Origin: Clavulina sp. PMI_390
Taxonomy: Eukaryota > Basidiomycota > Agaricomycetes > Cantharellales > Hydnaceae
Assembly: GCA_015039315.1 (NCBI GenBank)
Contig: WIDE01000128.1
Location: 1 to 64,000 of the forward strand
DNA length: 64,000 bases
Direction: 5' to 3'
The notes below the pieces were generated by a model, which had not been told where the DNA came from, ran no database searches, and saw only the letters and a list, made by a program, of their open reading frames with translations. Position numbers and translations under genes: made by a program. Positions within the stretch are counted from its first letter, which is position 1, and each line of letters starts with the position of its first letter. Below are positions 27,056 to 58,726 of the stretch, piece by piece.

Positions 27056-29004
27056 TCACTCCTCGTCCTCATCCCAGAGCTTAGTAAGGAAGTCACGAGA
27101 GTGAGCACGCGGTGGCTTTGATCAAAGAGTCAGTTCAGCATGTACGTGGGGGATCAATGGCACAATAGTGACATACCTTGGGGTGTTGAGCATGAGCGGG
27201 GTCAGCAACGTTCGCAGCAGGACCTTTCGCAGCACCTTTAGCCTTACCCTTACCCTTGGCCTTGGCCTTAGCAGGGGCAGGAGGGGCAGTGGCATTCCCG
27301 GGTGCAGGGGGAGCGGTGGCATTAAGAGCGGCAGGGGGAGGGGGAGCAGTGACATTGAGTGTGGCGGGAGGAGGGGGAGGGGCAGTAGCATTGAGGGCGG
27401 CAGGGGGAGTAGGAGGAGCAGCCTTGGCATCCGCAGGGGCGGGGGGAGCAGTGGCATTACCGGGAGGAGGGGGGGCAGTCGCGTTGAGTGCAGCAGGTGG
27501 AGGAGGAGCGGTAGCGTTGAGAGCAGCAGGAGGAGTCGGTGGGGCAGTCGCGTTCACGGCAGCGAGAGGAGCAGGAGGAGCAGCCTTCACCTTCTTAGCG
27601 TTACTCGTGGTAGCATTCTTCACAGCGTTCTTCGCAGTCTTACCAGCCTTACCGGTCTTGGCAGCGGTAGCTCCAGTCCCGGCGGTACCAGTAGTGGCCA
27701 CATTGGTGGCGGCTGTAGTACCCCCAGTGGTGACCACGACACAGTTACCAAAGCCACCAGCGGTCGTCAATGCTGTAATGGAATTTGATCCAACCGAGGA
27801 TTATCAGAAACACCGCCGAATGATGAGACTTGGAGGGCAANNNNNNNNNNNNNNNNNNNNNNNNNNNNNNNNNNNNNNNNNNNNNNNNNNNNNNNNNNNN
27901 NNNNNNNNNNNNNNNNNNNNNNNNNNNNNNNNNNNNNNNNNNNNNNNNNNNNNNNNNNNNNNNNNNNNNNNNNNNNNNNNNNNNNNNNNNNNNNNNNNNN
28001 NNNNNNNNNNNNNNNNNNNNNNNNNNNNNNNNNNNNNNNNNNNNNNNNNNNNNNNNNNNNNNNNNNNNNNNNNNNNNNNNNNNNNNNNNNNNNNNNNNNN
28101 NNNNNNNNNNNNNNNNNNNNNNNNNNNNNNNNNNNNNNNNNNNNNNNNNNNNNNNNNNNNNNNNNNNNNNNNNNNNNNNNNNNNNNNNNNNNNNNNNNNN
28201 NNNNNNNNNNNNNNNNNNNNNNNNNNNNNNNNNNNNNNNNNNNNNNNNNNNNNNNNNNNNNNNNNNNNNNNNNNNNNNNNNNNNNNNNNNNNNNNNNNNN
28301 NNNNNNNNNNNNNNNNNNNNNNNNNNNNNNNNNNNNNNNNNNNNNNNNNNNNNNNNNNNNNNNNNNNNNNNNNNNNNNNNNNNNNNNNNNNNNNNNNNNN
28401 NNNNNNNNNNNNNNNNNNNNNNNNNNNNNNNNNNNNNNNNNNNNNNNNNNNNNNNNNNNNNNNNNNNNNNNNNNNNNNNNNNNNNNNNNNNNNNNNNNNN
28501 NNNNNNNNNNNNNNNNNNNNNNNNNNNNNNNNNNNNNNNNNNNNNNNNNNNNNNNNNNNNNNNNNNNNNNNNNNNNNNNNNNNNNNNNNNNNNNNNNNNN
28601 NNNNNNNNNNNNNNNNNNNNNNNNNNNNNNNNNNNNNNNNNNNNNNNNNNNNNNNNNNNNNNNNNNNNNNNNNNNNNNNNNNNNNNNNNNNNNNNNNNNN
28701 NNNNNNNNNNNNNNNNNNNNNNNNNNNNNNNNNNNNNNNCCATTGTTAGCGGCAACGGCAGTGCTCGAATCAATGGCGGTAAGCTTTCCATTTCCGCAGG
28801 GAGTCGCTGTGGATGGACGAGTGACCTGCAACGGATCGGATGTTATGAGATGACAGCGCCGAATTGAACGGCCATAATCATACGTACATCGGCACGAACG
28901 AAAGTGCCAGTGACACCCAAAGCAGGTGAGATTCCGGCGTGCGCATGCACCTGGGATGCAGCAGCTAGGAGAGTAGAAGCGACGGCAAGCGAACGGAATA
29001 GCAT
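27056..29004 (-). CDS. Egh16/Gas1-like secreted protein, copy A (interrupted by assembly gap)
   Basis: Starts at 29004 with a signal peptide (MLFRSLAVASTLLAAASQVH, cleavage near AHA), followed by AHAGISPALGVTGTFVRAD and, after an intron, VTRPSTATPCGNGKLTAID; then 899 unknown bases remove exons 3-4. On the other side the coding resumes with SLTTAGGFGNCVVV and a long arm rich in Ala, Pro and Gly with imperfect repeats of AALNATAPPPP (several NAT sequons), then basic KAKAKGKGKAK. The last exon is 27056..27106 and encodes PPRAHSRDF and the acidic end LTKLWDEDEE. Family members are secreted fungal surface proteins linked to infection structures. It is a tandem paralogue of the gene at 30255-31432. 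Confidence 0.85.
27841..28739. other. Assembly gap (899 N)
   Basis: All bases are N. It falls inside Egh16-like copy A. By comparison with copy B only about 400 bases are expected between the flanking exons, so the gap length may be an estimate, may hide a longer intron or insertion, or may reflect collapsed repeats. Confidence 0.99.
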
Positions 29005-30254: not shown

Positions 30255-31432
30255 CTACTCCTCATCCTCATCCCAGAGCTTGGTGAGGAAGTCACGAGCA
30301 TGCGCGCGCTGTGAAATCGATCGGCGTCGTCAGTGAACAGTAATCTTCGGAGTGCCGACAAATGTAGCGTACCTTGGCAGTAGCAGTGGTATCGGTGGTG
30401 GTGGAGTTTGCAGCGTCGGTGCACTTCTTGCCACCCTTCTTGTGGGCAGCGTGCTCAGCAGCAATGACATCGGCAGCCTTGGCTTTGCCCTTGCCCTTGC
30501 CTTTGCCCTTCTTGCCGGTGGTTGTGGTTGTGGTAGTGCTGTTGGTACCGGTAGTGTCGGTAGTGCCAGTGGTGGTGGTGGTGGTGGTGGTCGATGTTGT
30601 GGTTGTGGTCGTGTTAGCGGCGGTCGTCGTCGTGCCGGTGGTACCGGTGGTGCCAGTGGTCCCACCAGCAGCATTACTGACGACGACGCAGTTACCGAAG
30701 CCACCAGCCGTTGTCAATGCTGGTACGGAAAGGATCGGGGGCGAAGATAATTAGGGATCCCGTGAAATGAAAAGAAGGGAAAGATAGACACTTACAAACA
30801 AGACACTTGTCCCCCGTTGCACCACCAGTGCACGGTGTATCAGCAGGCATCTGGATGCTAACGGCAACACTCCCCACGGTGGTTGGAGCCCTGTTCATTT
30901 GAAAGCGAGCACAGTCAGATGAGAATTGGGCGTTTCCAGTGAGTCGTGCTGTCGAAGACTTACTTGACACCGTTCGTCACAACCGTGGCAGTACCAGTGA
31001 AGGACTTGCCTAGCCCGGTCCCATCAACCTTGGCAGATGTGATCTGGGTCGAGCCATCTTGGCCAGCATTGAAGTTGGTCACAGTCTGGTATTGGAAACA
31101 TGGCGATGAGACACAGTACAGCAGCTTGTTACCGCAGTGATGGGCTCACCAAGTCAGCCACCCCATTCTTAGCAACAATAGCGGTGCTGCTATCAATGGC
31201 AGCGAGGTTCCCATTTCCACAAGGGGTTGCTGTTGATGGGCGAGTAACCTAGAACAGATCGGATCTTATAAGATGACAGCGAAGGAAAGATTGGCCGAGC
31301 ACGATCAACACGCACATCGGCACGGACGAAGGTCCCGGTAACGCCCAAAGCAGGTGAGAAACCGGCGTGTGCTTGCACCTGGGATGCAGCGGCCAAGAGG
31401 GTGGAAACAACGGCAAGCGAGCGGAAGTACAT
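30255..31432 (-). CDS. Egh16/Gas1-like secreted protein, copy B
   Basis: Exons on the complement 31316..31432, 31150..31248, 30964..31085, 30796..30890, 30373..30719 and 30255..30308 close to 277 residues. Signal peptide MYFRSLAVVSTLLAAASQVQ, then AHAGFSPALGVTGTFVRAD, VTRPSTATPCGNGNL, GTATVVTNGVKAPTTVGSVA and the family's ADTPCTGGATGDKCLVSL and AGGFGNCVVV; the paired Cys and the CTGG-GDKC motif resemble Egh16/Gas1 (DUF3129) proteins, which are induced during plant infection in other fungi. A Gly/Thr arm with long Thr runs follows, then KGKGKGKGKAKAADV and the acidic C-terminus DFLTKLWDEDEE. Probably secreted or wall-bound and heavily O-glycosylated on Thr (inference). Confidence 0.88.
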
Positions 31433-34265: not shown

Positions 34266-37200
34266 TTAAGCAGCTGGTGCTGCTGGCTTGTTCCTGAAGC
34301 GCAGGAGTGGCACTAGGCCTTGTAGATCGCATGCTTTGCCCAAGAACTCGTGCTGTAAAGGGTAACCCCATCTTCGTAAGCTCGAGATATACAACGGAAT
34401 TGGGTTTGGGAAACTTACAGTAAGCAACTCATGGGCTGTTGCACGACTCTTAACATCCACACACAAGCACACGCTAAGGAAGCTCTTGAGCTCCTTGCTG
34501 AGCTTCTCGGGGTTCTTGAGGGTCGGCGTGCCGTTCGTCGCGATGAGATACAGGGCCTTGAGAGGCTCCTCATCGAGGTAGGGAGGCTCCTGCTCGATCA
34601 TCTCGATAGCCATGATGCCCAGAGACCAGATGTCAACCTTGGCGCCATACTCCTTTTGCTTGACAACCTCGGGCGCCATCCAGTACGGTGTACCAACCAT
34701 GGTGGCACGCTTCGACTTCTGATCCGTAAGCTTGGCGCAGAAACCGAAATCGGCTGTAAGAACCAGACAAAGAAAGGCGAAATGATTGGGTGGTCAGCCG
34801 AAGCAACGAGAGAGGAGGCGGCGAGAGCAAGGGTGGTTTCATTACGAAGAAGAAAGGCACGTACTAATTTTGACATGGGCCTGGGCGTCGAGCAACACGT
34901 TGTCAGACTTGATGTCACGGTGGATAATGCTACGATCGTGGAGATGGAGCAACCCCTTGCAAGTCTAAGGAGAAGTGGCGCGTAAGCCACAACGAAGATA
35001 AACAAGAACACCAAGGCATCAAGTTGATAACGAACCTCCAAGCAAATGCTGGCAATCTGGTCTTCCTCCAGAGTGTTGTTCTCAATGACATCAGTGAGTG
35101 CGCCACCCTCCATGAACTCCATGACGACCCAGAGGTCCACACCACGAAGCAAGTAAGCATCGAGGAAGTTGACAATGTTCTCATGCTGCGACTCTTTCAT
35201 GACGAGAATCTCATTAACGATGAGCTCCTTGCGTGGCTGCGCAGCGAGATCCATCTGCTTGATGGCGACCTTCTTGCCAGTCGTAAGAGTCTTCGCGACG
35301 TAGACATGACCAGAGGCACTAATCGGGGGGAACGACGTCAGCTGACAGGGCGGATATGGGCTGCAAAGATGAAATAGGGAAAGCTTACCCTTGACCAATC
35401 TTCTTGATGGTAAGGTACGCCTTCTTCGGATCATCCTTGTTCACAATCTCCTTCAGCTTGTACATGATCTGGTCTTCCGTCATGGTGCTGTACCGCACAG
35501 TGGCTGGCTGGTACGGCTTCTCGAGTGCAGCGGCAGCGGCAGCGGGGCCACCAGGTGCGGGTTCAGCAGCGGGCTTGACGACTGTCTGTTCCTCGACCTC
35601 TTTGCCATTGGGCAAACGCTCCTTGGTAGTAAGTACCACTTCTGTGGGAGCCTCGACGGCTTCCTGAGCAGTCATGGCTGGCTGCTTCTGCTTGAGCGGC
35701 TTCGTAGGTTGAGCTGCTGGAGCAGGTTGCGCTGGCTCGTCCACCCGCATCTTACCAGTAGCCTCCGTCAATTGGGAGATCGACTCCTTCCGCGTAGGCG
35801 GCGCTGGACGCACATTCTCCTCATGGCCGACGGCGCCAGCAGTCGAAACCGATGAGGCATCGTTCTCGGCATCGCGGCGTTCGCGCTCTCGTCGCGCGGC
35901 AGAAGAGGAAGAAGCAGCATTTTGCGCTCCGGACGCGTTGGCTTTGGGAGGGGCGGGTGGGGCACGCGCGGCCTGCGGTGGGCGCGCAGGGGCAGGGCGT
36001 GTGGCCTGTGGTAGTTTTGCTGCGGAAAGACCAGGCACGAATGAGTTTTGTGCCCATCTGGAAATCTATGTGAAAGATCGTGATACTCACTTGCTGAGCC
36101 ATTGGGCGCTGCCCGCGTCGGCAACTCGTTCCCGAATGAATCGTTTGAGTTTTCCTGTCTTGGGGCAGGTGGTCGCTGGCTTGAGGGCTGCTGGTTGTAA
36201 TTGGGTTGACGTGTGGTGGGCAGAGGAGGTTTGGCTGGTGAGGATGCGTCATTTCGGATGTTCGCGCCAGCAAGGCCAGTGCCAGCATTGAATCGAGCAG
36301 CAGATGGAACCGTTGGGAGTGACGAAGACGAGCCCTCGCTACGTAGCGGTGGAGCAGCACTACCCATCTGGGCAGGAATGGTTCCATACTCTTCATACTC
36401 GCGTTTTTGATGGTCAGTGTAGAATTCGAGGACCTCGAGGACGGCCTGGGGATTTTTGGCATAATCTTCGCGGGTGATGGATGACGAAGTTAACAGACGA
36501 GTCCATTGTTCAGGCAATCCCTATGGTTCATAGTGGATCACATAATAAGCACATCATCCAGATGATCAGACGGTGTATATCGCCGGACTAAAAGCACTTA
36601 CAGTGAATGCGCCAGTGACATGATCGAAACCAACGTGGATCTTGTGGACAAAGTTGGTTGGGCCACTGACACCCATCAAGGGACTCCTGTTGTAAATGTC
36701 TTCTTGCCATGTATAGAGCTCCTCGTCGCTCTTTAGATTAATCCAGATTTTACGGTCCTTGGACTCGATAAGTAAGCAATATGGCTTGAGTTCCGTCCGG
36801 TCTACAGCGGTAATGTCTCTTAGCCAGATAGCGTTGGTTTGAGGGGCAGTCTAGATGCCGTTCGAATCGAAAAAGGAAGAGAGACATGATATAAGTCATT
36901 ATGCATGAAAGAGCATGTGGCACAATGTGAGGCGCACCTCGTTGCGGTGGATCGAGAGAACCTCTTCGCGGAGGATGAGGTATTTCTTGCTCCAGTACCA
37001 GCTAGCAAAGCCATCTTCCTTCAAGCTCACATAACCAGCGCGCACGTACGTCCCTTGCGAAGCGGAGGAGTTCTGGGATCTATCCGGCGAGCCTCCTATA
37101 CCTGCTGAGTAGGCTGACTGGAAACTGCCTCCGCCGGAGACGGCAGTGTTGTAGCTGGAGAAGGAATTGGAATGAGCCAGTGTGGATGAGCCGCCGCTGG

Positions 37201-37285
37201 AGTAGGAGGCATCGCTCTGGTTGCGTCTAGGGGCAGGAGGTGGAGGCCGCGAGGGGGTGAGGGCGGAGATGCCATCATAGGACAT
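34266..37285 (-). CDS. CLA4: p21-activated protein kinase, Cla4 type
   Basis: Exons on the complement 36938..37285, 36602..36850, 36091..36520, 35389..36019, 35036..35318, 34865..34964, 34419..34753 and 34266..34352 close to 820 residues. A PH domain spans about residues 70-175 ([20 protein letters not shown] to [11 protein letters not shown]). The CRIB motif [20 protein letters not shown] follows at once, the PH-CRIB order that distinguishes Cla4 from Ste20. After a Pro/Ala-rich linker comes the kinase: [23 protein letters not shown] (catalytic Lys), [22 protein letters not shown] and [13 protein letters not shown]. Cla4 is a Cdc42/Rac effector controlling septins, polarity and hyphal growth. 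In several basidiomycetes PAK genes lie close to pheromone receptor loci, as here. Confidence 0.95.
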
Positions 37286-38667: not shown

Positions 38668-40209
38668 ATGGCCTCGATGAATGTCGACAAAGTTGATGTG
38701 CACACCTACCTTGCAACCGCTGCATCAACCGTACCTGCCTCTCTGCAGCCATACTTTGAGAAATTCAGGACGCAATATGATCGACGGTTGGTCGCCTCTG
38801 CGCGTGATTGCTCTCGATCCCCGATTGACCACGTTTATAGGTTATGGCACCAACTCACCTTGACTCTGGAGAACTTTTACAAGGACCCAGAATCACCACC
38901 TTATCATTTTGAGTTATTCAATGGATTCATCAGCGATTTCGCGCCTAAACTCAACCAGCTGAAACTGGCCGAACTTGGCGTCCGTGCTAGCCAGCAGCTT
39001 GATGGTAGGCTCTCCTCCTTTCACCATGATGTGTCTGCTAATGCCACGTATAGACCCTTCGGAGGTCATCACATTCCTTGTGTCATTCATCGCAAAGATT
39101 TCGAAAGAAGAAGCACCTGAGGCCTACCTTTTATTGCTCGCTCAACTTGCACACGCCAAGATGATATTGGGGGATGACGCTGGTGCTCAAGTCGACATTG
39201 AAGAGAGTTCGAAAATCATCGATACTCTCGATGGTGTTGAACCTACAGTGCATGCTGCCTACTATGGAGTTGCAGCAGACTACTACAAAGTACGATCTCC
39301 TATCATTTACAGGCCTAAAATATTTTGCTAACCCTTCACACTAGACGAAAGCCGACTATGTCAAGTACTATAAGAACTCTCTTCTCTACCTTGCTTGCGT
39401 GGACCCTGCTGAAGATCTGACACCTGTCGAGCGTCTTACTCGAGCCCACGATCTTGGTGTCAGCGCTCTATTGGGCGAGACTATCTACAACTTTGGGGAA
39501 CTGGTGTGTCCTGATACATATATTTGAAAGCTGTTCAACACACTAAAGCATTTATGAAGCTGATGCACCCTATTCTGGACGCTCTTGACGGCTCGGAGCA
39601 TGCATGGCTCAAAGAGTTGCTATTTGTGTTCAATGAGGGCAATATCGGGCGATTCGAAGCCCTAGGGCCACAATTGTCGAAGCGAGTATGTTGAGTTCAC
39701 TACATGTACTTGACCGTCACTCACCTCTAGCCTTCTAAGCCTATACTGGCACCCAGCTTCGCTTTCCTTCGCCAGAAGATTTGCCTCATGGCTCTCATCG
39801 AAGCTGTATTCTCTCGCAGCGCAAATAACCGCTCGATGACCTTCCAGACAATCTCAGAAGAAGTCAGGCTACCCAAGAATGAAGTAGAACATTTGGTGAT
39901 GAAGGCACTAAGGTGCGTCATCCATAAGACCCATAACTGATCATTCACTGATATTTTCCGCGTAGTTTGAAACTTGTCCGCGGCCGTATCGATCAAGTTG
40001 ATGAGAAAATTCAAATCGACTGGGTTCAGCCTCGCGTGCTCTCTCGGACACAGATCAAAGCCCTTGCTGGTAGACTGACCGATTGGATCGACCGACTTGG
40101 CAAAGTCGATGGTAAGCGCATAATCCTGATGACTCATGAGACATGCTCCATGCTCACATATCAATTTGTAGAATTTGTACAATCTAACTCCAAGCTCTTG
40201 GCTGTATAA
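38668..40209 (+). CDS. RPN9: 26S proteasome regulatory subunit Rpn9 (PSMD13)
   Basis: Exons 38668..38786, 38841..39004, 39054..39289, 39345..39503, 39560..39685, 39731..39912, 39966..40111 and 40172..40209 close to 389 residues, as in yeast (393) and human (376). It is a non-ATPase lid subunit made of PCI-type helical repeats. Visible family segments are RLWHQLTLTLENFY, AYYGVAADYYKTKADYVKYY, LGVSALLGETIYNFGELLMH, FNEGNIGRFEAL and, in the PCI winged helix, TFQTISEEVRLPKNEVEHLV, SLKLVRGRIDQVDEKIQIDW and QPRVLSR. The first intron starts with a less usual GTTGGT donor; skipping it would insert foreign residues into the conserved RRLWHQLT. Confidence 0.95.
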
Positions 40210-40944: not shown

Positions 40945-41064
40945 TTAGATGATGATACATTGGGTGTAGCCGAGGGACTTTATCCGCTCTTCATCGATGG
41001 GGAACTCGGTGTTATCGGGGAGGGGGTTAGCCTCGGGGAGGGCGAACGTGGAAATGTGGTCCAT
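40945..41064 (-). CDS. Lipopeptide mating pheromone precursor (CaaX)
   Basis: A 39-residue intronless frame starting MDHISTFALPEANPL and ending SLGYTQCIII followed by TAA. The C-terminal Cys-Ile-Ile-Ile is a CaaX box, so the Cys is expected to be farnesylated, the last three residues removed and the Cys carboxymethylated, as for other basidiomycete a-factor-like pheromones. A charged Glu-Arg pair at residues 26-27 fits the usual N-terminal processing site (family consensus E/D-R/H), which would leave a nine-residue mature lipopeptide from Ile28 to Cys36. The acidic, Pro-containing pro-region after MD is also typical. It lies 1.7 kb from a STE3-type receptor on the same strand. I chose the Met at 41064, not the one 63 nt upstream, because precursors of this family start MD. 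Secretion would be through a Ste6-type transporter, not by a signal peptide. Confidence 0.85.
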   Translation of the reverse strand: MDHISTFALPEANPLPDNTEFPIDEERIKSLGYTQCIII

Positions 41065-42727
41065 GGTAATCGGAGTCGGTGTGATAGGTTTGAGTTGTGG
41101 GGGTGGATAAAAGCGCCGCTTAGGCAAAGGGGCTCAGAACGAAGATCGGAGGTTCGCGAATGGGCGCCGGCGCGAGGGAAATTTGTTGGGACGGCTCGAA
41201 AGGGTTAGCGAATTGCAGAAGAAAGCGATCCCCACGCGAGGTCGGGAAAGCTTTTTATACCCATGGGTGGACAAAAGGCAACCTGGCACGAGAGCTATTT
41301 TTGGAGAACAAAGCACTAATTTGATTTCGTTTGTGCTACAACACGTGGTGGTGTTCATAGAGGTGGGGCTGAGGATCGAGGCTTAGTAGTTAGGGGCTGC
41401 TTATGTTATAACCCCAAGGTACTTGAAATATCCTACGCATTGCAAGAAAGGGCTATACATCAGTGTTCAGCAATTACTGGCCGAATCAGGGCAGGACAGC
41501 ATCGAGAGTTGTCAAGTGCGCGGCCCGAGATGGTCTTTGAGAGGTACAGGAATTTTAGAGCGGGACATTACTAAAGGAGGATTCAGGTTCCTAAAGCGAG
41601 GGGTCGTAAGATTTAACCAAGTCAAGGAGGAGCTTGTAGGCGCGTAGCGAAAATATCAATAGTTCATGCTAGCCCAATGCTGCACTTGATCGAGGGCGAA
41701 CTCATAATGACCGCCGAACTATGACAAGCTTGATCGATGGGCTATGCATGACATTAATCGGAGAGAGCAATGGACAGATGATTTTATAGCCGGGTATGAA
41801 AGCGAGGATGATTGAGAAGAGTTGACGAAGGGCAAATCAAGAAAGTCACCACAATCACGTGAAGCACTTCCTCATTGGGGTGTAGTATCGGGAAAGTGAC
41901 AATGGTATCGATCTGCACGATGATAATACATTTCAGAAGAGATAAAATCCATGAAAAGGGTATCTTGGCTCATTAAGAGACGAACCGAACCTTCGACGGG
42001 CGACATCGAGTCAGTGGATCCCAGTCAACCACAAAAAGTCCTCCATGTAACCATGCTCAATGTTGGTATTTGTGAAGGAGGCTCTGACCTATCACTACGT
42101 AGCCGACGAACACGACCGAACAATAAGGTTTACGTTAGACCATTAGAGTAGAAGTTTCAAACCGATTGCATTGTACGCGGAGGAAGAACTGGGCCCTCCA
42201 CTCCCAGAAGTAGGTAGGCAAGGCAAAAACAGGAGTGTGATAGAAAACACAGTAAGCAACACGCAAAAGTGGAGACCGGCCGCAATCCAAACAAGAGAAG
42301 GTCAGATAGAAGAAAAGTGAGAGGCTACATGGTGACTAAATATCTAGCCAATCGTCTATGCTACAATAGTGAGACGGGAAGTGGGGATAAGGGGAAATAT
42401 ATCCATCTAATACATAGGAGGTAGGGGGGAGAGATATTACAATGGTAAAGTATGTGAGACGAGATAGGGGGCCATGGTGTGTAGAAGACGAACATAGAGA
42501 CAGATGGCTGAGCCGGAAAAAAGGTCCATAGCAGGGGTATGAGGAGGGATAATCAAGGAGAAGGTCCATGGTATGTTTTATTTGTGCTCACGCTCTTTGG
42601 GTGCACGTAAGTGAGAAAACAGGTAGAGGAGAAATGCTTGGTATTAAATAGTGCGTGCAGGGTCATGGACTCGATCGGCCGAGTCGCAAGGAAGGTAAAA
42701 AAAAAAAAAACCCCGAAAGGAAGGCGG
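41065..42727. other. Gene-poor interval between pheromone and receptor genes
   Basis: About 1.7 kb on the 5' side of the pheromone gene and the 3' side of the receptor. It is purine-rich on the plus strand. No frame here has a domain, a signal peptide or a CaaX end. A poly-A run at about 42697-42709 (poly-T on the receptor strand) lies just beyond the receptor stop codon. Confidence 0.5.
41251..41313 (-). promoter_or_regulatory. Putative pheromone gene promoter (TATA and HMG-type site)
   Basis: On the complement, TATAAAAAG lies at 41251-41259, about 190 bases upstream of the pheromone start codon. About 50 bases further upstream is AACAAAG (plus strand 41307-41313), resembling the core bound by HMG-box regulators such as Prf1/Mat2, which drive pheromone genes in other basidiomycetes. 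A seven-base match can occur by chance, so function is inferred. Confidence 0.45.
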
Positions 42728-44893
42728 CTAGATCGCTCGTGGCGTTGGAGGGGAGATGCTGTAGCAGCTCTCTTCGTACTCAGCGCCACGCGCACCGAGA
42801 CCATTCATGTGCTGCACCTCGAAGCCACCCAGGTACTTCCCCGCGGGATGACTCACAGGATTGGGCGGCGTCCGGCCATCATCCGTATAGCGAGTGCTCA
42901 CGCTTTCGGGCAAACTGGCCGCAAGAGGCGAGGAGCTTATCCCTATCCCTGTGGTAGCAGTTGAGCTCGACCGAATCGCAGACCCTGATCTCGGGTGACG
43001 AAATGAATGATGTGAGGGAGTCGAGTTGCGGAACTGCCCGTTCAGCGAAGCAGGTGTAAGAAGTGCAGAGTTATTGAACGGGAACGATCGTGGGATCTTG
43101 AATGACGTATACGAGGTGTGCGGATTTGGGGTAGTGGATTGGAGCGACAAAGGAGGGCGTATAGGGATGGGGAAGGAGGATGGATCGCGCTCGGGCAGCA
43201 CGGAGCTGCTCGCGCGGTGTTCTGCGCCTCTGATGCAGGCTTTAGGGATCGGGAAGTGGGGGGTGGCCCTTTGCTGGTCGACGATGGGCACGGACGAGGA
43301 GAGGTGGCGGGTGTCAAACACGGGATGCAAAGGGAGCACGGGGATATTTTTGTCCTTAGACCCGAGGGAAAGGACAAAAGACCGCCTCATCGACCTAGGG
43401 GACAGTGTGGGAGGAGGGGCGCTCAGCATAGGAGCAGCAAAACTCTTCGCCGATTGGGCCATCTGCATCTCGTGTTCCTTGATAAACTGTCGCTCGTTGG
43501 AGCTAACGGTGGTATTCTCGTTGGTAAAGTAATATTTGAGACCACTCTCAATATCAGACTGGCCGCGCTCTCTCTCTTCGGCACAGGGGCGTCTTGCCTT
43601 CTTCAGCTTGGATACTGGAACGGGAGGGATAGTGAAGCTCCATTTTCTAGGCGAGGATGTTTTCTGGCTAGCGTTGCCGCTAGCAGGGGTGGATGGAGGT
43701 GTGGATTTGCGGTCGAACTTGCCGCTACCCGGACGCCATGGCAGGTAAGGCTTGCCCACGAGGCGGTGGAAGAATCGTTTGTACGCTGCAAGGGTCTCTC
43801 CGGTGAGGCCGAAGAAGCAAAAGAAAATAATAGTGCATAAGGGATTGTTCCAGCGGGTGATCTCAAAGGCGGGATACCTCCCAGACATCTTGACTACGTA
43901 CAGAGGATAGGCAGGAGTCTGCGAGAAGCCCCAGTGTACGTATGACCAGCTGATCCACGGCTGCAGGCCGTCCTTGACGTTGGAATGGAGGAGGTAGAGG
44001 GAGAGAGGAACGGAGAGAAGGATGTCTGTGCCGGCTAGGGCCATGAGGCGGAAATACCGGGAGAGGTTGAGTGTGGACTTGTGATGGCCGACGAGAGCCT
44101 TGAAGGTTTTGCGTTGTCGAAGGAATGCGCGGATGGAGAGGACGCAATAGCAGACGGAAATGAGACCCAGCACGCTGGGCCAGATGGAGATGAGCACGAT
44201 GGATAAGACCGAGTTGTACACCGTTCTACGCATCGTGGATATAAGCAAGCGGGAACGAAGGGATGATGGATTGAGGGACTTACGGCCAGCAGCCGAAATC
44301 TTCATATATGTCGTAGCGATGTCCCTGAACAACTATGTCTGGAGGAAGAACAGAGGTGAGTGTCGCGTCGGTGAATATATGTGGTGCGATGAGCCGACTT
44401 ACGTAGAGTCATAATAAGGATGGGAATGCCCAGACCGATACCGAGGTCAATGAGGGCTTGATTGCGTAGCTGGATGCAAGTCGGTGAGATAGGCATAAGC
44501 AAGCATCAATGTGGGACTAACCACGGTGGGAGAGGACGAGACTTGGCGGGAAGTCACGATATTGAAAAGCCTACGGTTGATGCAGAGAGCACATGCTGGA
44601 TAGGCAATGCCGAGCCCCATAGCCAGTTTAGTGGAGATATCGCACCAGATGGGCGAGGGATTGCCCATGTTTCCGCGCCACACAATCGAGTTAACAAAGT
44701 AGATAAGATTGCCAATAAAGGTCCAGAAGATATAGAGTAGGGTGCCAAAGTTGCGGGCCTGCCAATGCCAGGGTAGAGGGAGGAGAACTAACCACATGCC
44801 GAGGAATGTCATGACGGTAAAGGCATAGCTCTCAGTAGACATGACCAATCGAGTTCTTATATTGCAATTCGGCGTAGCATACGGTTCATTCAA
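42728..44893 (-). CDS. STE3-type pheromone receptor (class D GPCR)
   Basis: Exons on the complement 44522..44893, 44403..44469, 44284..44338 and 42728..44225 close to 663 residues (646 if the second Met, MSTESY, is used). Seven membrane helices fall within about residues 20-312. STE3 hallmarks are WHWQARNFGTLLYIFWTFIG, GNPSPIWCDISTKLAMGLGI, CALCINRRLFNI, YDIYEDFGCWPTVYNS and LLHSNVKDGLQPWISWSYVH. The receptor binds a farnesylated peptide from a compatible mate and signals through a G protein and MAPK cascade. The cytosolic tail is long (about 350 residues), rich in Ser, Pro and Thr, and probably phosphorylated. Either a mating-type-specific B-locus receptor or a non-mating STE3-like paralogue; the linked CaaX gene favours the former. 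Confidence 0.93.
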
Positions 44894-45408: not shown

Positions 45409-46332
45409 ATGTCCATCGTAAACATACGTGAAGTCACGTTCTTGAACAATCCGGCGCGCTTTTCGGATTCCTACGAATTTCGCGTCACCTTTGAGTGCAT
45501 CGCGCCACTCAAAGAAGGTCCGTCGCGTTCCTCGTTCCTTGTAGCACGCGTCTTTCGCACTACCTTCTAACACTTATCGCTCCATGTTACATCTATTATG
45601 ATCTGATACGTCTGGATGGCATGATGGGCAGACCTCGAATGGAAACTCATCTTCGTCTCGTCCCCCGACTCGGAGCAGTTTGACCAAGAGCTCGACGATT
45701 GCATGGTCGGCCCTGTTCCCGTTGGCGTGAACACGTTCACCTTCTCGGCCCCTCCCCCCGAGCCCAGCAAGATCCCAAAGGAGGATGTCCTCGGTGTGGC
45801 AGCCATCATCCTCACGGGGTCCTACAAAGATCAAGAATTTGTCCGTGTCGGATACTACCAGAACACAGAATATGACGACCCCCTGATGACCGAGGCGTGG
45901 AGAGATGGAAAGCTCAAGGGAGATATTCAATGGCCGCGCCTCGTTCGCAGCTTGGCAGACAAGCCACGAGTCACCCGTTTCACAATCAAGTGGTCCGTAG
46001 TTTCGTTTTGACACACCTATATCTTTACTCTTAACATACTAAGGCTCTGGATGTGATGGTGATTATCTAACCACTCGCTTGCTTTCCTCGTTCTCCATAG
46101 GGATGTCGAGGAAGCAGAACAAACACCCATGTTCTCCCAACCCCACTTCAACGCCCCTCCTCAACAACAGCAACAATTTGCCCCTCCCCCGCAACAATTC
46201 CAACAGCAGCAGCCGTACGGCTACGGCAGTGCTCAACCCGCACCGATCTTTGGCGTCGGCGGAGGGTCCCCCATGCGAGATGATCAGACAAGTAGCATGA
46301 GCGTACCACCAGCAGGTGGAATGATGCATTGA
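45409..46332 (+). CDS. ASF1: Histone chaperone ASF1
   Basis: Exons 45409..45517, 45632..45992 and 46101..46332 close to 233 residues. It binds H3-H4 dimers and hands them to CAF-1 or HIRA during nucleosome assembly in the nucleus. Residues 1-155 form the conserved immunoglobulin-like core: [90 protein letters not shown] and [10 protein letters not shown]. The C-terminal tail (about 75 residues) is rich in Gln and Pro, unlike the acidic tail of yeast Asf1. The third exon is joined in phase at a GTCCGT donor. Confidence 0.96.
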
Positions 46333-49788: not shown

Positions 49789-50450
49789 AATGATGTTAGA
49801 TCTTCTGCTGCATTGTGATTTTCTGATGGCCAGTACTTTTATACGCTCTGGCTGTGGCGAAGGCAGGAAGTAACGGACCGTGGCATTATGCCGACATTGC
49901 TGCACTTCCAACAGATCAAGCTTATTTTTGCGAGGTGCGGGGCCAATACCTTTGGTGTAAGGGCTTGGCACCCCGCTTGGTGCTTGCTCGAATGATTCAC
50001 ATGAATGAAGGTGCTGCGCAGGCGGACCGCATGCTTCTTAAAAGGCTCCGTGGATATTGGTTTCTACCACGATACTGCAAAACAACGTCGTCCCGCCTGA
50101 TCAAGGTGCCACGTAGCAATGGAGGCTTTGGGGGAAATAGATATCATTGAGCACGGGGAAAAGCCGATAGGGATCCAACATTGAACCGCCAAATGGTCGC
50201 CAAGCTGATCTGAGATCTAAGGCGGACCGCAAAGTCTCGTGCAAGAAGATTCGGGGCCCGAGCGATGATAAAACATTGGATTCATCACTCCCCCGATCTT
50301 AGTCTTTCAGACCGTTCCTCAGGCTACACGGGAATATCACAATCATGATAGCGAAATAGAGCCCAATGATAAAGGCTAATATAGATACCTGGGATAGACT
50401 TCACCCTGAGGTGGTAAATAATTCTGGGAAATGGAGTCGAACTTGATGGA
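49789..50450. other. Intergenic region 5' of the PL4 lyase
   Basis: Holds the PL4 promoter and the 3' end of fucosidase copy 1. No coding sequence is recognised; the frame at 49854-50150 is antisense to the promoter and has no domain. Confidence 0.45.
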
Positions 50451-53400
50451 TCAGTTGTATGTGAACTGGAAGGCCCAGGCATTTTCGACCTATCACATGT
50501 GAGATGTGAGTTTGCGGAACAAAAAAGGGGCAGGCAAGAAGTAAAGATGATCTCACTGAGTCTACCACGGCATTCGGGACTTGGATGGCGATGGACCCAT
50601 TTGTTTGACGAGTCCAGGTAAGGTTAGTACCAGCATCACCCGCACCCAGAAGGGCAACGGTATCACTAGCCAGTAAAGGCACTGGGGTATCGACTACAAC
50701 GAGCTCTTTGCTGGGACGGCCTAAAGCGATCACACAGAACGTGCTGTTTGTGCGCGTGAATCGATATGCGGCTTTGGCGTCTTGAGCCCCAAAGTAGAAA
50801 TAATTCTGGATATCGATGTCTCTGTGAGAAATAGAAGTGCACAACCGTGGGTGGGCTTACCGTGTCAAAGATGCAAGGGCCTGAGTCATTGAGCCAGTCA
50901 CCGACTCCTTTGAGGTTTTGCGCTACAATTGCGGGGACGACACCATCACCAGTTGGGCCGATGTTCAGGAGATAATTGCCGTTCTTAGATACAATGTCGA
51001 CCAGAGAAGTGATGATGTATTGGGGAGTACGGTAATCAGAGTCCTTCGTGATACGATTGTACCCGTAGGCTAAACAAAAAACAATGAGGGAGAATATTGG
51101 GCGATGCGAAGGCTCTGAAGGATGAAAGCTTACATGCAGGGTCTACAGATTCACTCGACTCCCATTTCTGAGTCTGAATATTTGGGCGTCAGTACCTGCT
51201 CGTCGACGTTTGCAGCTAAATACCGGTAACTGACCTGAATCGAGGCGAACTGGGAGAATAGAAAAGTTAGACGATAAATTCTGCGTGTTGTGATCATCTA
51301 CGGCTAATAAAGAATGCCGTACTTTAGCATACTCTGGTGTATCAAATTGAGGAAGGGCGCCACAACCTAAAAATAACAGTCAGAAGGAAGGGAAAATGAT
51401 GCTCAGGCAGATACGGCAGGAGCGAGAATGCACGTACGATCGTTCATGGCTACCTGCATATTATTCTCGTCTACGAAAGACCACCATTCTTCCACAAAGG
51501 TTCTCGTAAGATTGGGCCCTCCAATATCACACCACTGGCGCAAGAGAATGTCAAATCTACCATTACGACCAGCAATTTGTTGGTATGTGATTGATATTGG
51601 TACGCACCATGAGTTGGGTTTTATACTTTTCGGCAAGTGCCTTCATCTTAGGGAACTGCACATCGTGAACCCAGTCCCCGACCGGGAGGCGACCGGTGTA
51701 AGGTTCATAGGTGGTGTTGTCATAAGCGTTGACCGCAAGTTCGCCGTACCACTTGCCGAACCCATAGCCACCCTTACCCATATCAGGATTGAACCATCTG
51801 TGGTGACCAGTCATTCGGATACAGGTTCAGGCCAAGTAGCGAGCTATGAACTTACTCAGGAAGAGAGAAATACCTAACATATGAAGAGAGGTTGAGTTTC
51901 GGCGAATCGAGAAAGATATAACTATGACGTACGTTCCCAGCACTAGATCTGGATGTCGGCTCCTAGCAGATTCGAACAGCTCCATCAGGAAGTCACGTTT
52001 AGGGCCAAGGTAGACGCTGCTTCGGTGTGTCGCATCTCCTGTGTCAAATATCGCGAAACCATCGTGATGCATCGTCACAGGAACGAAGTATTTGGCTCCG
52101 CTGGAGGCAACGATATCGGTGATAGCATCGGCCGAGAAATCCTTCGCAAACTCTGGGATAAAGTCATCATAGACGAATTTCTGCAGAGGTCATGAGTACT
52201 ATTCGTACGTGCCACAAACCCTGGACTCACTTCGCCGTAGTTTAGTTTATGGTGCTGTGGAGTGTCTTGTCAACAAGCTTGCCCTATTCAGAAATATTGT
52301 TATTTTTCGGCTTACCAGCCACCAAAAGTTGGTATCATCCATAGGATTGTGCTGCCACCACCTATGGTCGATAATTGAGCAAGCGTTATCAACGGGGTAA
52401 GCTCGCACGGGACGCACCAATACCACTCCGCGTAAGTGTTCGGGGCTATCGAAAGTTATGTCAGTAGTTGGACTGCGTAAGAAAGCAACACAGTAGACTT
52501 ACGGCCCCAGCCAGGTACTGAGAATATGCCCCAGTGCATGAAAATACCGAACTTGGCATTGCCATACCACTCTGGGGTGTCGCGGAGCAGAGGATCGCTT
52601 TCAAGCTGGAGCATGACTTCTTGTGTTACAGGCTGGAAACCGCCACCACCACTCGCCGAGAGATATACTGGCGTATGAGCGAAAGAAGTGTTCAGCGACG
52701 TGAAGAGATGTGAATTGTTGACGCCAGTGGATGAAGAAATCCAAATATCAAGAAGAAGTTGGTCTCCCGGCATGAGACGGCGGAATTCCCCTGGTTGGAC
52801 TGTGTGCGCCACTGAGCTATTGAGTGTCACTGACCAAGGTGAGTTGATCCACTTCGCCGGGTCAGCAGACATCGGAGAGAAGCTCGCTAGCGTAACCTCA
52901 ACTGCATACGCTTTTACGGCATCAAACATTCGCCAACGAGTCGTCAATCTGGCCTGGCGGAATCCAAGGTTAATCCCGTCGGTTGTCTGGCTGTCAACGA
53001 GAGTCATAGCGAAAATGTGCAATCGATTCCGATCATCATAGCCATTAGGGAGCGTGATTGATGTCAGGGCAGACGTCGTGCTGATTGAAGTTGACCAGGT
53101 AAGCATTTGGGTTTGGTTATAGTTTATGGTCCCATCTTGGTGCAAATGATGCGGCCTAAATGAGATCAATCGTGAGGGTCAGCATACTGATCTTATCCAA
53201 CGATGGAGTAGCGTGTTAGGAGAGTGCTAACATCTTAACGGCTGCCCCAGAGTTGATCCAATGCAAGTTCCACCTGTGAGAGTGGGGTTCAGATATATCG
53301 CCTGGAATCCGAGCAATACAAAGGGATAATCGCCTCACCAGTTGTGAATGGACGCTAGAAATAGAAGGTGAGCAGAGGTCCAACTTGATACCAATGTGAG

Positions 53401-53898
53401 GTAGGACATTACCTTCGACCTGCTGTTGGGTTCCGTCCGCAAAATTAAACGTGAAGACCGCGTTATTCTCCCCTTAGGAACAGATGTCAGCCAAAATCAG
53501 AGAATGCCAGAAGTCATGAGCTTACCATCATCGTAGTCTCCCGCATAAAGGATGTTCATTTCACGAGCATACTGAACAGATTGAGGGATGTTGATAGTTT
53601 GACCATGGACGACAAGATTGTCGGCTTCTCCCGTCCACTTTTGGGGTAGGTGATAGGTAATCCCATCAACGTACAGATCACCCCGAGGCATGAAATCGGC
53701 GTCCCATCGTTCCTCACGAGGATCGAAGTTGGCATTAGGCCCGACCGCGATGTTGTTGAACAACTTGGAGAGGTCAACATAATAGGACTGGACCGTAGTC
53801 TTGTTGAAAGCCAGAGCCTGGGAAGACGGGAGAGAGTTGAAGAATAGGCCTGAGGTCAGGAGCGAGAGGATCATGGACCCCCTCATCGGAGTCCACAT
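50451..53898 (-). CDS. GH29 alpha-L-fucosidase with N-terminal accessory region, copy 1
   Basis: Starts [20 protein letters not shown], a signal peptide, then about 280 residues before the catalytic domain ([33 protein letters not shown]-like [20 protein letters not shown]). GH29 follows: [60 protein letters not shown], then [18 protein letters not shown], where the Asp is the expected nucleophile, and [22 protein letters not shown]-terminal beta domain ends [12 protein letters not shown]. It hydrolyses alpha-L-fucosyl residues outside the cell, perhaps on xyloglucan or pectin side chains. The span contains many short introns; its exons were not all fixed. It is paralogous to the neighbouring gene at 54650-58178. 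Confidence 0.88.
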
Positions 53899-54649
53899 AT
53901 CGTAGGTTTACTGCAAATAGGCAGATTCGTGGGTTGGAGTGGGCCTTGGGCTTTGGGGAGATTCGACGCCCCTCCATTGCGCTCCTTTATAGCACGGAGA
54001 CATACGCAGCACAGGGACCATGCAGATCACCCTAGGCTCCGCCAAGCCAAAGTACTTGTATATCATGGGAATTGATCACAATAATAGTACCAACACGAGT
54101 TACGTTGTATCGAGCATTTCTCATGCCAGATCGATGTTGAGCTTCAAGGTTATATTAGCGTATCCAACTTGAATAAAGTGGTGTGAGATAGGATCGATAT
54201 TAAGGACAACGATGCTGGGAAAGAGATTTTTGTGAACAAGGTTTCAGAGGCCAAGAGGTCCATTTAGCAATTCGAAGAATAGCATCCACTTGTGACGCCT
54301 CCTCGGGTCCGAAGATATGTCACATCGTTCCTTCCTAATTGGGGAAATTCTGTTAGGATCATCATTATGTTTCCTCATTGATTGGAACTTTATGGTGGTC
54401 GTGAAGTAATTACGAGCCCCACTTGCCCACGTGCTACGCGACTCGGAACGATGGTGTGGTGGGAAAGCACCTCAGCTGCAGGGTTGACCATAATGGTTCT
54501 TCCGATCTTCCAATGAATATCCTACTAAATTATTGCAAGTTACATGCTGCTCACTGGCTGCTATATATGTACATTGGTTTGTGCCGCGTTATGCTACGAC
54601 TGCCGTGATCGTGGGCATTTCTTGAAGGAGACCCTTTCGCGGCGAGCGC
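53899..54649. other. Intergenic region between the fucosidase copies
   Basis: About 750 bases with no gene. It contains the promoter of fucosidase copy 1 next to 53899 and the 3' flank of copy 2. Confidence 0.5.
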
Positions 54650-57600
54650 TCACGCCGGGAGAATCTTGTACGTGACCTGGAAAGCCCAGGCATGATCGAT
54701 CTAGCGTGCAAGTTTAGCATTTTCTTTGTGGTAGTAGCGTGAAAATCAGGAAGGATACGAAGCAGTACCTTATCAAGGAGTGAATCAGGAACGTCAATGA
54801 CAAGAGGACCATTTTGGTGCTGGCTCCACGTCAAGTTCGCACCCTCGCTGCCAGCGCCGAGGAGCGCGATCGTATCGTGTGGAAGGACAGGGACTGGAGT
54901 GTCGATTACCAGAAGTCGATTCTTTGGACGCTCGATAGCAATTATGCAGAAGGTATCAGATGTGCGAGTAAAACGGAGAGATCTGTACTCTGCACCGAAG
55001 AAGAAATAGTCCTGAGAGTGGGCAAAGTCGCAACAGGTTCAATATAGTGTCGAATTACATAGAGGAAACAAGAGGCACTGACAGTATCGAAGATGCAGTC
55101 ACCTGAATGGGCAAGCCATTCGCCGACTGCTTTGAGCCTCTGCACCACCGGTCGTGGAACCACGCCATCGCCATCGGGGCCAATGTTGAGCAGATAGTTG
55201 CCGTTTTTCGATACAATGTCGACGAGTGATGTGATAAGATACTGGGGACTACGGTAGTCCTCATCTTTGGTGTACCTATTGTAGCCATAGGCTGTAGAAC
55301 AAATGGACCAATGCGAAAGTTTCGCGAGGTTGAATGGAGAGGATATGTGTCAGTGTGTTAGTGTGTTAGTAGGTGAGGCCCCCCGCATGATGGCGAGGGC
55401 GAAGGAATAACTAACAATATGGATCAACGGACTCGCTCGACTCCCATTTTTGGGTCTACATCACTGCGGTTAGTAGGGTGCTGTACGAGTAGCAGGTCTC
55501 CTCGAGTACCTGGATTGAAGAGAACTAGAAAAGCACAGGGATGGAAAGAATCAGGCTAAATGTTCTCGCACACAGCATGCGCTACTGACCTTCGCATATT
55601 CTGGGGTGTCAAACTGCGGCAGAGCTCCGCAGCCTGTACACGACGTAACATCAGACAATCAGAGATGAGCAAGCGAGCGGCTGGCAGGGGACTTACGGTT
55701 ATTCATGGCGAACTGGATCCCGTTCTTGTCAGCGAATGGCAGCCAGTCCTCAAGGAATGTTCGGGTCAAGTTCGGCCCGCCAATGTCGCACCACTGGAAG
55801 CAGCGTACCGCAATAAGCACGCAAGGCGATACAGCGCATAATGGCCATTGGATGACGTACCATCACGTTCGTTTTATACTTCTCTGCTAAGATCTTCATC
55901 TTGACAAGCTGCTGTTCGCGCAGCCAATCTCGGCCTGGCAAACGGCCAGTGTACGGCTCCACTTGCGAATTGTCGTAAGCATTGACCGCCAGGTTTCCTG
56001 GCCAATTACCGAAACCGTAGCCTCCCGCTCCCGAGTCAGGATTGAACCACCTTCGAGAACCAATGGTTCATGATACGTCCAGATAAAGACAAATCAATGG
56101 TGATCGTCAATCGACTTACTCTGGCATTGAGAAGTATCTGGATCATTTGAACATGAACGTAAGTGTAAGGGCAACAGTCCAGTTCCGCTGATGACTTACG
56201 TTCCCATAACAAGGCTTGGATGGCGCGCTTTCGCCGACTCGAACATCTCCATCAGGAAGTCCCGCTTGGGGCCTAGATAAACGCTGCTACGGTGAGTAGC
56301 ATTCCCAGTATCGAATATGGCGAAGCCGTCGTGATGCATCGTAGTGGGCACGAAATACCGTGCCCCACTGGATGCGACGATGTCCATGATCGTGTCGGCG
56401 TCAAATTTCCCTCCCAATTCGGGGATGAAGTCGTCATAGACAAAATCCTAGGCACCACAGTAATGGTCAGTTATGTATCATAGATCGTTCATTAGATAAA
56501 GGACACACGGCGCCATAGGTTTCCCTGTGGTACTGTAAAACACAAACGATCAGTTGCAGACTCGCGACGACTTCGGACAGAATAACTCACATTCCAGAAG
56601 TAGTTTGAGCTGTCCATGGGTGTGTGTTGCCACCACCTGATTGAAGAACTTCAGTCTCAAATGGGCAAAGTTGTGGAACCGCGTAGACATACCAATACCA
56701 CTCAGCATATGGGCCAGGGGCTAAGAAAGATCTGGTGAGTCATGGTGAAGAGCAGAAATACAGAGATGCCACTCACGAGCCCACCCAGGGATGGCAAAGA
56801 CACCCCAATGCATGAAGATACCGAACTTGGCATCACCAAACCATTCAGGTATATCACGAAGAAGAGGATCACTTTCTACATCAACTGTCACCTGTTGGCT
56901 GAGCATTTGATTCGTTCCGACTTCCTGTGCCCCAACCACGACGGACGAATCGAGCAACGATTCCCTGAGTATTTGATACGTGTCCATATCATCTATAGAG
57001 CGCTGCTTCGGGGCGACCCAAACATCAAGGATGAGCTGGTCACCTGGCATAGCGCGCCAGTACTCCCCAAGCTGAATAGTCTCGACACCGGGACTGCCGA
57101 CCCACACTAGCCAGGGAGAGTTGATCCAGTATCTCGGATCAGGAGCGAGGGCCGAAGGGAGCAAGCTCGCCATCGTCACTTCGACAGCGAAGGCTTTCAC
57201 GTTCTCTATGATGCGCCACCTCGTCGTGAATCGTACCTGACGGAAGCTTAGTGCAATTCCTCCTGCTGTATGGCTCGGCACAAGTGTCATTGCGAATATA
57301 TGAAGTCGATTCCAGTCGTTCGTCCCGGGGAGGGTGATAGATTTGAGCCGAGAAGTCGTGCTGATCGATGTAGACCATGAGAAGATCTGGGTCTGGTTGT
57401 AGTTCCGGCTTCCGTCCGCCCGAAGATGATAGGGCCTAATTACCAAGATTTAGGTTCATGAGACAATGCTTTGCCAGCGACGCACGTACATTTTGACGGC
57501 AGCTCCGGAATTAATCCAGTGAAGGTTCCACCTACGAATACGTTAGGTTGTTTGTCTGCTCAACTTGGCGAACTACACCAACCAGTTGTGAATCGAAGCT

Positions 57601-58178
57601 GTGAGAGAGGAAACAGTCAACGATGAGTTCCAATGGAGGAGGAAGTCGGCAAGCGCCCATACCTTCCACCTGCTGCTCACTTCCATCCTCGAAATGGAAC
57701 GTGAACGTCGCACCAGTCTCTCCTAAGGGGTTTGATATTTTAGGGGGGACTTAGGCATTGATATAATGAATTACAGAGGCTTACCGTCGATAAAGTCACC
57801 TGCATAAAGGACGTGCATCTCCCGAGGGAATTCTACAAAGTGCGGGATCTTCACGGTCTGGCGATCACTGACAACATTGTCCGGCTTGCCATCCCATTTC
57901 TGAGGGAGTTGGTACGTGATTCCGTTCACGTCTAGACTGCTAGTCGGCATCAACTTGGCGTCCCATCTCTCGCCTCTAGGATCGAAGTTGGCGTGCGGGC
58001 CTACCGCGATGTTGTCGAACAGGTAGGCGAGGTCGACAGGGTAAGACTTGACGGCACTTGCAAAGATTGTATCGTTGTAGTGTGATAGAGGAGACTGAGC
58101 ATCGTTGAGAGAGGAGCTAAAGAGCAGCAGGGGCTGGAAATACGCAAGCAGAGCGCGAGCAAAGGCGGGGACCTTCAT
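54650..58178 (-). CDS. GH29 alpha-L-fucosidase with N-terminal accessory region, copy 2
   Basis: Tandem paralogue of copy 1 with the same domain order. Starts [20 protein letters not shown] (signal peptide; a Met 57 nt upstream is in frame but spoils the signal). The accessory region has [30 protein letters not shown] and THE segment [20 protein letters not shown]. Catalytic parts include [57 protein letters not shown] with the nucleophile Asp, and a C-terminal beta domain ending [14 protein letters not shown]. All catalytic landmarks seen in copy 1 are intact, so both copies appear functional. The spacing and intron positions match copy 1, as expected of a gene duplication; sequence has diverged throughout, so it is not recent. 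Confidence 0.88.
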
Positions 58179-58726
58179 CACTGCCGATGAGGTCACTTCC
58201 TCCGCTAAGAGATGCAAAGGCGTCCCAAGTGACAACCATTGGTTAGATAATAAGTGGGAAAAGCTAGTGCTATAAAGTTTGTAGCTACCTAACGTCTAAA
58301 TTCAGATGCGACCTTGGGGAGGCTAGGGTCAAGTTGACAGATGTTGATGTGTTTGGCTCGTGAGTTCGCGCCAACACTCGCTGTGCTTGGGAAGGTTTAT
58401 TAGGTCTGACCGCGCTATACCAACTACCGGACAAGGCGCATAGATGATGAGAAACCTAGTAATTACAAGGGGGAGGCAAACTAAATTAATCAACCCGTAC
58501 AACGCCTTAGCTCCCACAGTGAGGGTTTCTGTATCCAACAGAGGAAACAGAGTCTGATAGAATGTTTGACGAGCCAGCATCGACCATGAGGAGTCAATCC
58601 CACCTGCCGCATAGTAAAGCCGATGATGTCGTAATAAATCAGCTACGAGTCAAGAGATAGGAAGCTCATAATCTTTAGGAGGCGTCAGTCCTCGACGGAA
58701 GCTGGGAAGAGATTCACATTGGATAG
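58179..58726. other. Intergenic region between fucosidase copy 2 and cyclin
   Basis: Contains the fucosidase copy 2 promoter and the 3' end of the cyclin gene. If the last cyclin intron is real, its final codons lie here. No other gene is supported. Confidence 0.45.

Follow-up and report, generated by a model that had tools for sequence, protein, structure and literature searches.

Does the small open reading frame beside a STE3-type receptor gene of Clavulina sp. PMI_390 (Cantharellales, Hydnaceae) encode a mating pheromone precursor? The initial annotation had read it as one of the P/R (B) type, and this central reading is well supported by the layout of the frame, its coding bias, its neighbourhood and the receptor tree. 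We are highly confident that the frame belongs to the P/R (MAT-B) mating-type locus and encodes its pheromone precursor. The analysis covered the whole stretch of 64 kb, called the window below, in an assembly of 39.4 Mb and 301 contigs.

The probable precursor frame and its locus

On the minus strand, 41064..40945 translates as MDHISTFALPEANPLPDNTEFPIDEERIKSLGYTQCIII, followed by TAA. The precursor ORF (40945..41064, minus strand) spans 120 bp and 39 codons, opens with Met1-Asp2, carries Glu26-Arg27 and ends, directly before TAA, in a CaaX box with aliphatic residues, Cys36-Ile-Ile-Ile39 (CIII). It was examined by translation, chance tests, codon score and third-position GC. Its ATG follows the stop end of the receptor gene (42728) at a distance of 1,663 bases, with both genes on the minus strand. 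The initial annotation had described the 39 codons, Met-Asp, Glu26-Arg27, CIII, TAA and the coordinates correctly, and had placed the frame about 1.7 kb from a STE3 receptor, in agreement with our measurement; the strand was absent from it. The plus-strand reading of 40945-41064 has neither a Met nor a stop and was rejected. A TATAAA at 41254..41259 (minus strand), found in a motif scan 195 bases upstream of the precursor ATG, is a possible TATA box.

Pheromones of this class carry a charged pair (ER, DR, EH or ED) 10-15 residues from the C-terminus (PMC5100862, PMC8970355, PMC8686365), and E26-R27 sits within this range, 12-13 residues before the last residue. The length of 120 bp is inside the 100-200 bp accepted for pheromone genes in PMC8970355, and that of 39 aa is one residue below the usual 40-100 aa (PMC5100862, PMC8686365). 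The whole window holds 20 ORFs of 20-90 aa that end in C-x-x-x. Two aliphatic box residues are present in two of them, and of these two the precursor ORF alone combines a charged pair with Met-Asp at its start.

The genes around the precursor ORF are, in order, a PAK-type kinase (minus), PSD13 (plus), the precursor ORF (minus), STE3 (minus) and ASF1 (plus). The PAK-type protein kinase (34266..37285, minus strand; ends approximate, model not fully spliced) was recognised by its Pkinase and P21-Rho-binding (PBD) domains, with a PH domain at E 0.2 only, and lies 3.7 kb from the precursor ORF. The PSD13/Rpn9 proteasome subunit gene (38668..40209, plus strand) is a spliced model matching PF22037; apart from 18 residues of an intron left in the model, its product is identical to the PSD13 protein of Clavulina sp. 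PMI_390. An exon of the histone chaperone ASF1 (45625..46011, plus strand; PF04729, E 4.3e-45) lies beyond the receptor. The linkage of a STE3 receptor to a pheromone gene, a MAT-B feature, is present here, and the window contains one receptor and one pheromone ORF. PSD13 had no match outside contig C33, so that a single haplotype seems to be represented in the assembly at this place.

Elsewhere in the window, two low-complexity ORFs on the minus strand (27135-27800 and 30292-30750) have the stretch LTTAGGFGNCVVV in common and flank a run of N; the window contains 899 N. At 50400-58300 (minus strand) there are apparently two tandem alpha-L-fucosidase genes, with PF01120 matches at 52456-53178 and 50666-51142; similar ORFs are the sole basis for calling a second gene. 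Outside the window, G000:C27:1-10000 holds four successive TALE-type homeodomain segments (PF05920; 5069-6003, minus strand), about 290 bases apart. These segments clearly differ in sequence and possibly form one multi-homeodomain gene.

The receptor and its paralogues

The gene at 42728..44842 (minus strand) encodes a STE3-type pheromone receptor of 646 aa. Its four exons (44842-44522, 44469-44403, 44338-44284 and 44225-42728) are joined at GT-AG sites. The protein matches PF02076 over profile positions 2-292 of 292 (E 2.8e-99), and merging of its hydropathy windows yields seven hydrophobic segments, so that the seven-helix STE3 receptor of the initial annotation is borne out. A search of solved structures with the receptor returned a single unconvincing match (E 0.11).

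A genome search for STE3 gave 21 exon-level matches, which we read as six genes: the window receptor, one gene each on contigs C68, C296 and C24, and a tandem pair on C269. The receptor tree was built from 36 rows, comprising the window receptor, four paralogues and 31 hand-picked members of the 120 listed homologues; the C24 receptor, of which just 31 residues were recovered, was omitted. The window receptor groups with the named Coprinopsis mating receptors in a 32-row group, its position inside which is not fixed by the tree. The four paralogues fall together in a deep clade of their own, and the split is supported at 100/100, although it leans toward the mating group because the homologues were collected with the window receptor as query. 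The sole close partner in the tree is P0005, an unnamed partial protein (source label lgn) with 70% identity over 149 columns. A search limited to proteins of 0.55-1.75 times the query length gave 330 receptor homologues, and none of the 120 that were listed was a Clavulina record; given this restriction on length, the missing record is no evidence that the receptor lacks an annotation.

Around the other STE3 genes, no strict CaaX ORF with a charged pair or Met-Asp was found in 30 kb on each of four contigs. The scan reached about 12-17 kb to each side of these receptors and included 2,160 N; pheromones that are spliced or lie farther away would escape it. The C68, C296 and C24 receptors and the C269 pair are candidate orphan receptors.

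Chance, coding bias and family membership

The precursor ORF was compared with simulated DNA. In 300 first-order Markov simulations of the 64 kb, the mean number of CaaX ORFs of 30-80 codons was 2.06, falling to 0.14 with a charged pair and to 0.007 with Met-Asp too. Second-order Markov runs were made of 12.1 kb (the receptor ±5 kb). At least one CaaX ORF with a charged pair appeared in 78 of 2000 runs, which lends something to the view that the small CaaX peptide is an accidental reading of non-coding DNA between PSD13 and STE3, as does the lack of a homologue and of a PF08015 match reported below. The full layout, with Met-Asp added, appeared in only 4 of the 2000 runs.

The composition of the frame also argues against chance. 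Its GC content at codon positions 1, 2 and 3 is 0.51, 0.36 and 0.79. Among 966 small ORFs of 30-60 codons, taken from 204 kb (the window and 14 stretches of 10 kb), the precursor ORF ranked third by codon score and seventh by synonymous score. Eight of the 966 have CaaX-like ends, and the precursor ORF alone of these scored above zero. The null models carry no codon bias, and motif rarity and codon bias are thus separate lines of evidence. Together they make a chance ORF very unlikely.

The PF08015 (Pheromone) profile gave no match to the precursor peptide even at E 10 (cut-off 22 bits), and the peptide is thus not placed in that family. As a control, nine of the 13 printed Rhizopogon precursors were searched; all nine matched at E 0.13 or better and three passed the curated cut-off. 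A search of the whole genome with PF08015 also found none, which shows little because 14 control genomes likewise gave no match. A search of the protein library with the precursor peptide returned no homologue, which fits the earlier claim that automatic pipelines miss such genes. The Ustilago response element is ACAAAGGGA. Within one mismatch it was absent in the 500 bases upstream of the precursor and of the receptor gene, and a motif scan found ACAAAG cores in 500 bases upstream at no clearly higher density than expected.

Taken alone, a CaaX box indicates no more than a lipid anchor. This and the failure of PF08015 to recognise the precursor would suit a small prenylated peptide with a non-mating role, such as a membrane-anchored signalling peptide. 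We consider such a role extremely improbable for a peptide with a charged pair at the expected distance and a Met-Asp start, encoded beside STE3 and near PAK. With no PF08015 match, no homologue, no response element and a short length, the precursor is not proven to descend from a named pheromone family. These negatives are not enough to offset the combined weight of layout, coding bias and position, and the case shows that PF08015 can miss a convincing pheromone adjoining its receptor.

Proposed maturation and comparison with known mating-type loci

Profile matches in the genome placed prenyltransferase domains at three places, a Ste24-type protease domain at one, and ICMT domains on contigs C1, C38 and C296. 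Because these domains are encoded in the genome, the usual maturation route is available. On C296, two ICMT-domain matches (62266-68475) lie about 36-43 kb from the STE3 receptor of that contig.

By analogy with the known class, the 39-residue precursor would be prenylated on Cys36, shed its last three residues and then be carboxyl-methylated. A cut near Glu26-Arg27 would release a lipopeptide of about 9-11 residues, which would leave the cell and activate, on a compatible partner, the STE3-type receptor belonging to another P/R allele, leading to mating signalling. The adjacent receptor would in turn detect the pheromone of the partner. We infer prenylation, cutting, export and receptor activation of the Clavulina precursor from that class. 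The proposed processed region, from E26-R27 to C36 plus the box residues III (40948..40989, minus strand), was drawn from layout only and compared with the Rhizopogon precursors. E26, R27 and I28 are all possible first residues of the mature peptide. Mature products are described as having about 10-11 residues and starting near Glu (PMC8970355), a description to which E26-C36 (11 residues) corresponds no less well than the I28-C36 (9 residues) proposed in the initial annotation.

Known basidiomycete pheromones carry a farnesyl group, and the final Ile of a CaaX box may favour geranylgeranyl. It is conceivable, but unlikely, that the Ile-ended box receives a C20 geranylgeranyl rather than a farnesyl group and that the receptor pocket is adapted to it; the other STE3 receptors would then be orphans with other ligands. 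Three Rhizopogon precursors that end in CVII (PMC5473757 Table 4) provide a precedent for the final Ile.

These Rhizopogon phb3.3 precursors share with the Clavulina ORF the Met-Asp start, acidic residues followed by an Arg 8 residues before the Cys, and a box ending in two Ile, CVII in the former and CIII in the latter; they differ in length, at 50-53 residues versus 39 (PMC5473757). The comparison used 11 of the 13 printed precursors, the two omitted ones repeating others letter for letter. The last 20 residues of the Clavulina precursor align with the three phb3.3 without gaps at 6 of 20 identical positions, and 1, 2 and 3 of 2000 shuffles scored as high, as the best of 11 compared. For this last reason the tail match is suggestive of common descent and not proof of it.

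In Rhizoctonia, a member of the Cantharellales from another family, the pheromone gene (RhiMfa) adjoins the receptor (RhiPra) as in Clavulina (PMC7884421). By printed coordinates, seven of the nine listed RhiMfa genes span 120 bases, the length of the Clavulina ORF (PMC7884421). Rhizoctonia and Ceratobasidium receptors among the matches listed share about 40-50% identity with the window receptor. In Trichaptum, STE3 and pheromone genes lie next to PAK (CLA4), which delimits the MAT-B region, most of the pheromones start with Met-Asp, and the maturation site is acidic-Arg, a layout that Clavulina resembles; the other flanking genes differ from PSD13 and ASF1 of Clavulina (PMC8970355).

The number of genes at these loci bears on whether the Clavulina gene is still in use. 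Trichaptum has four receptors and two pheromones (PMC8970355), and in Boletales, Rhizopogon included, the B-locus is described as holding several receptors as well as several pheromones, with an ICMT gene at its flank (PMC5473757); the Clavulina window showed none of these features. With one pheromone and one receptor in the window, a real pheromone gene might have fallen out of activity, for example in a lineage without outcrossing, with the receptor kept for other reasons. However, the reading frame is intact, as are the CaaX box, the charged pair and the codon bias, and Rhizoctonia is likewise described with one receptor and one pheromone gene (PMC7884421), so that we regard an inactive gene as highly improbable.

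Literature searches by word that combined Clavulina or Cantharellales with pheromone terms turned up no paper on mating-type pheromones; they are not exhaustive, as PMC7884421 escapes the order name. Searches for CIII or CVII as whole words with pheromone and CaaX also found no papers, a motif inside a printed peptide being invisible to them, as with the CVII printed in PMC5473757.

Read as a pheromone precursor of the P/R locus, the Clavulina frame is one more ordinary case of a kind already known and confirms the known mushroom layout. Clavulina thereby gains a concrete pheromone-receptor pair as a basis for typing and testing its mating system.
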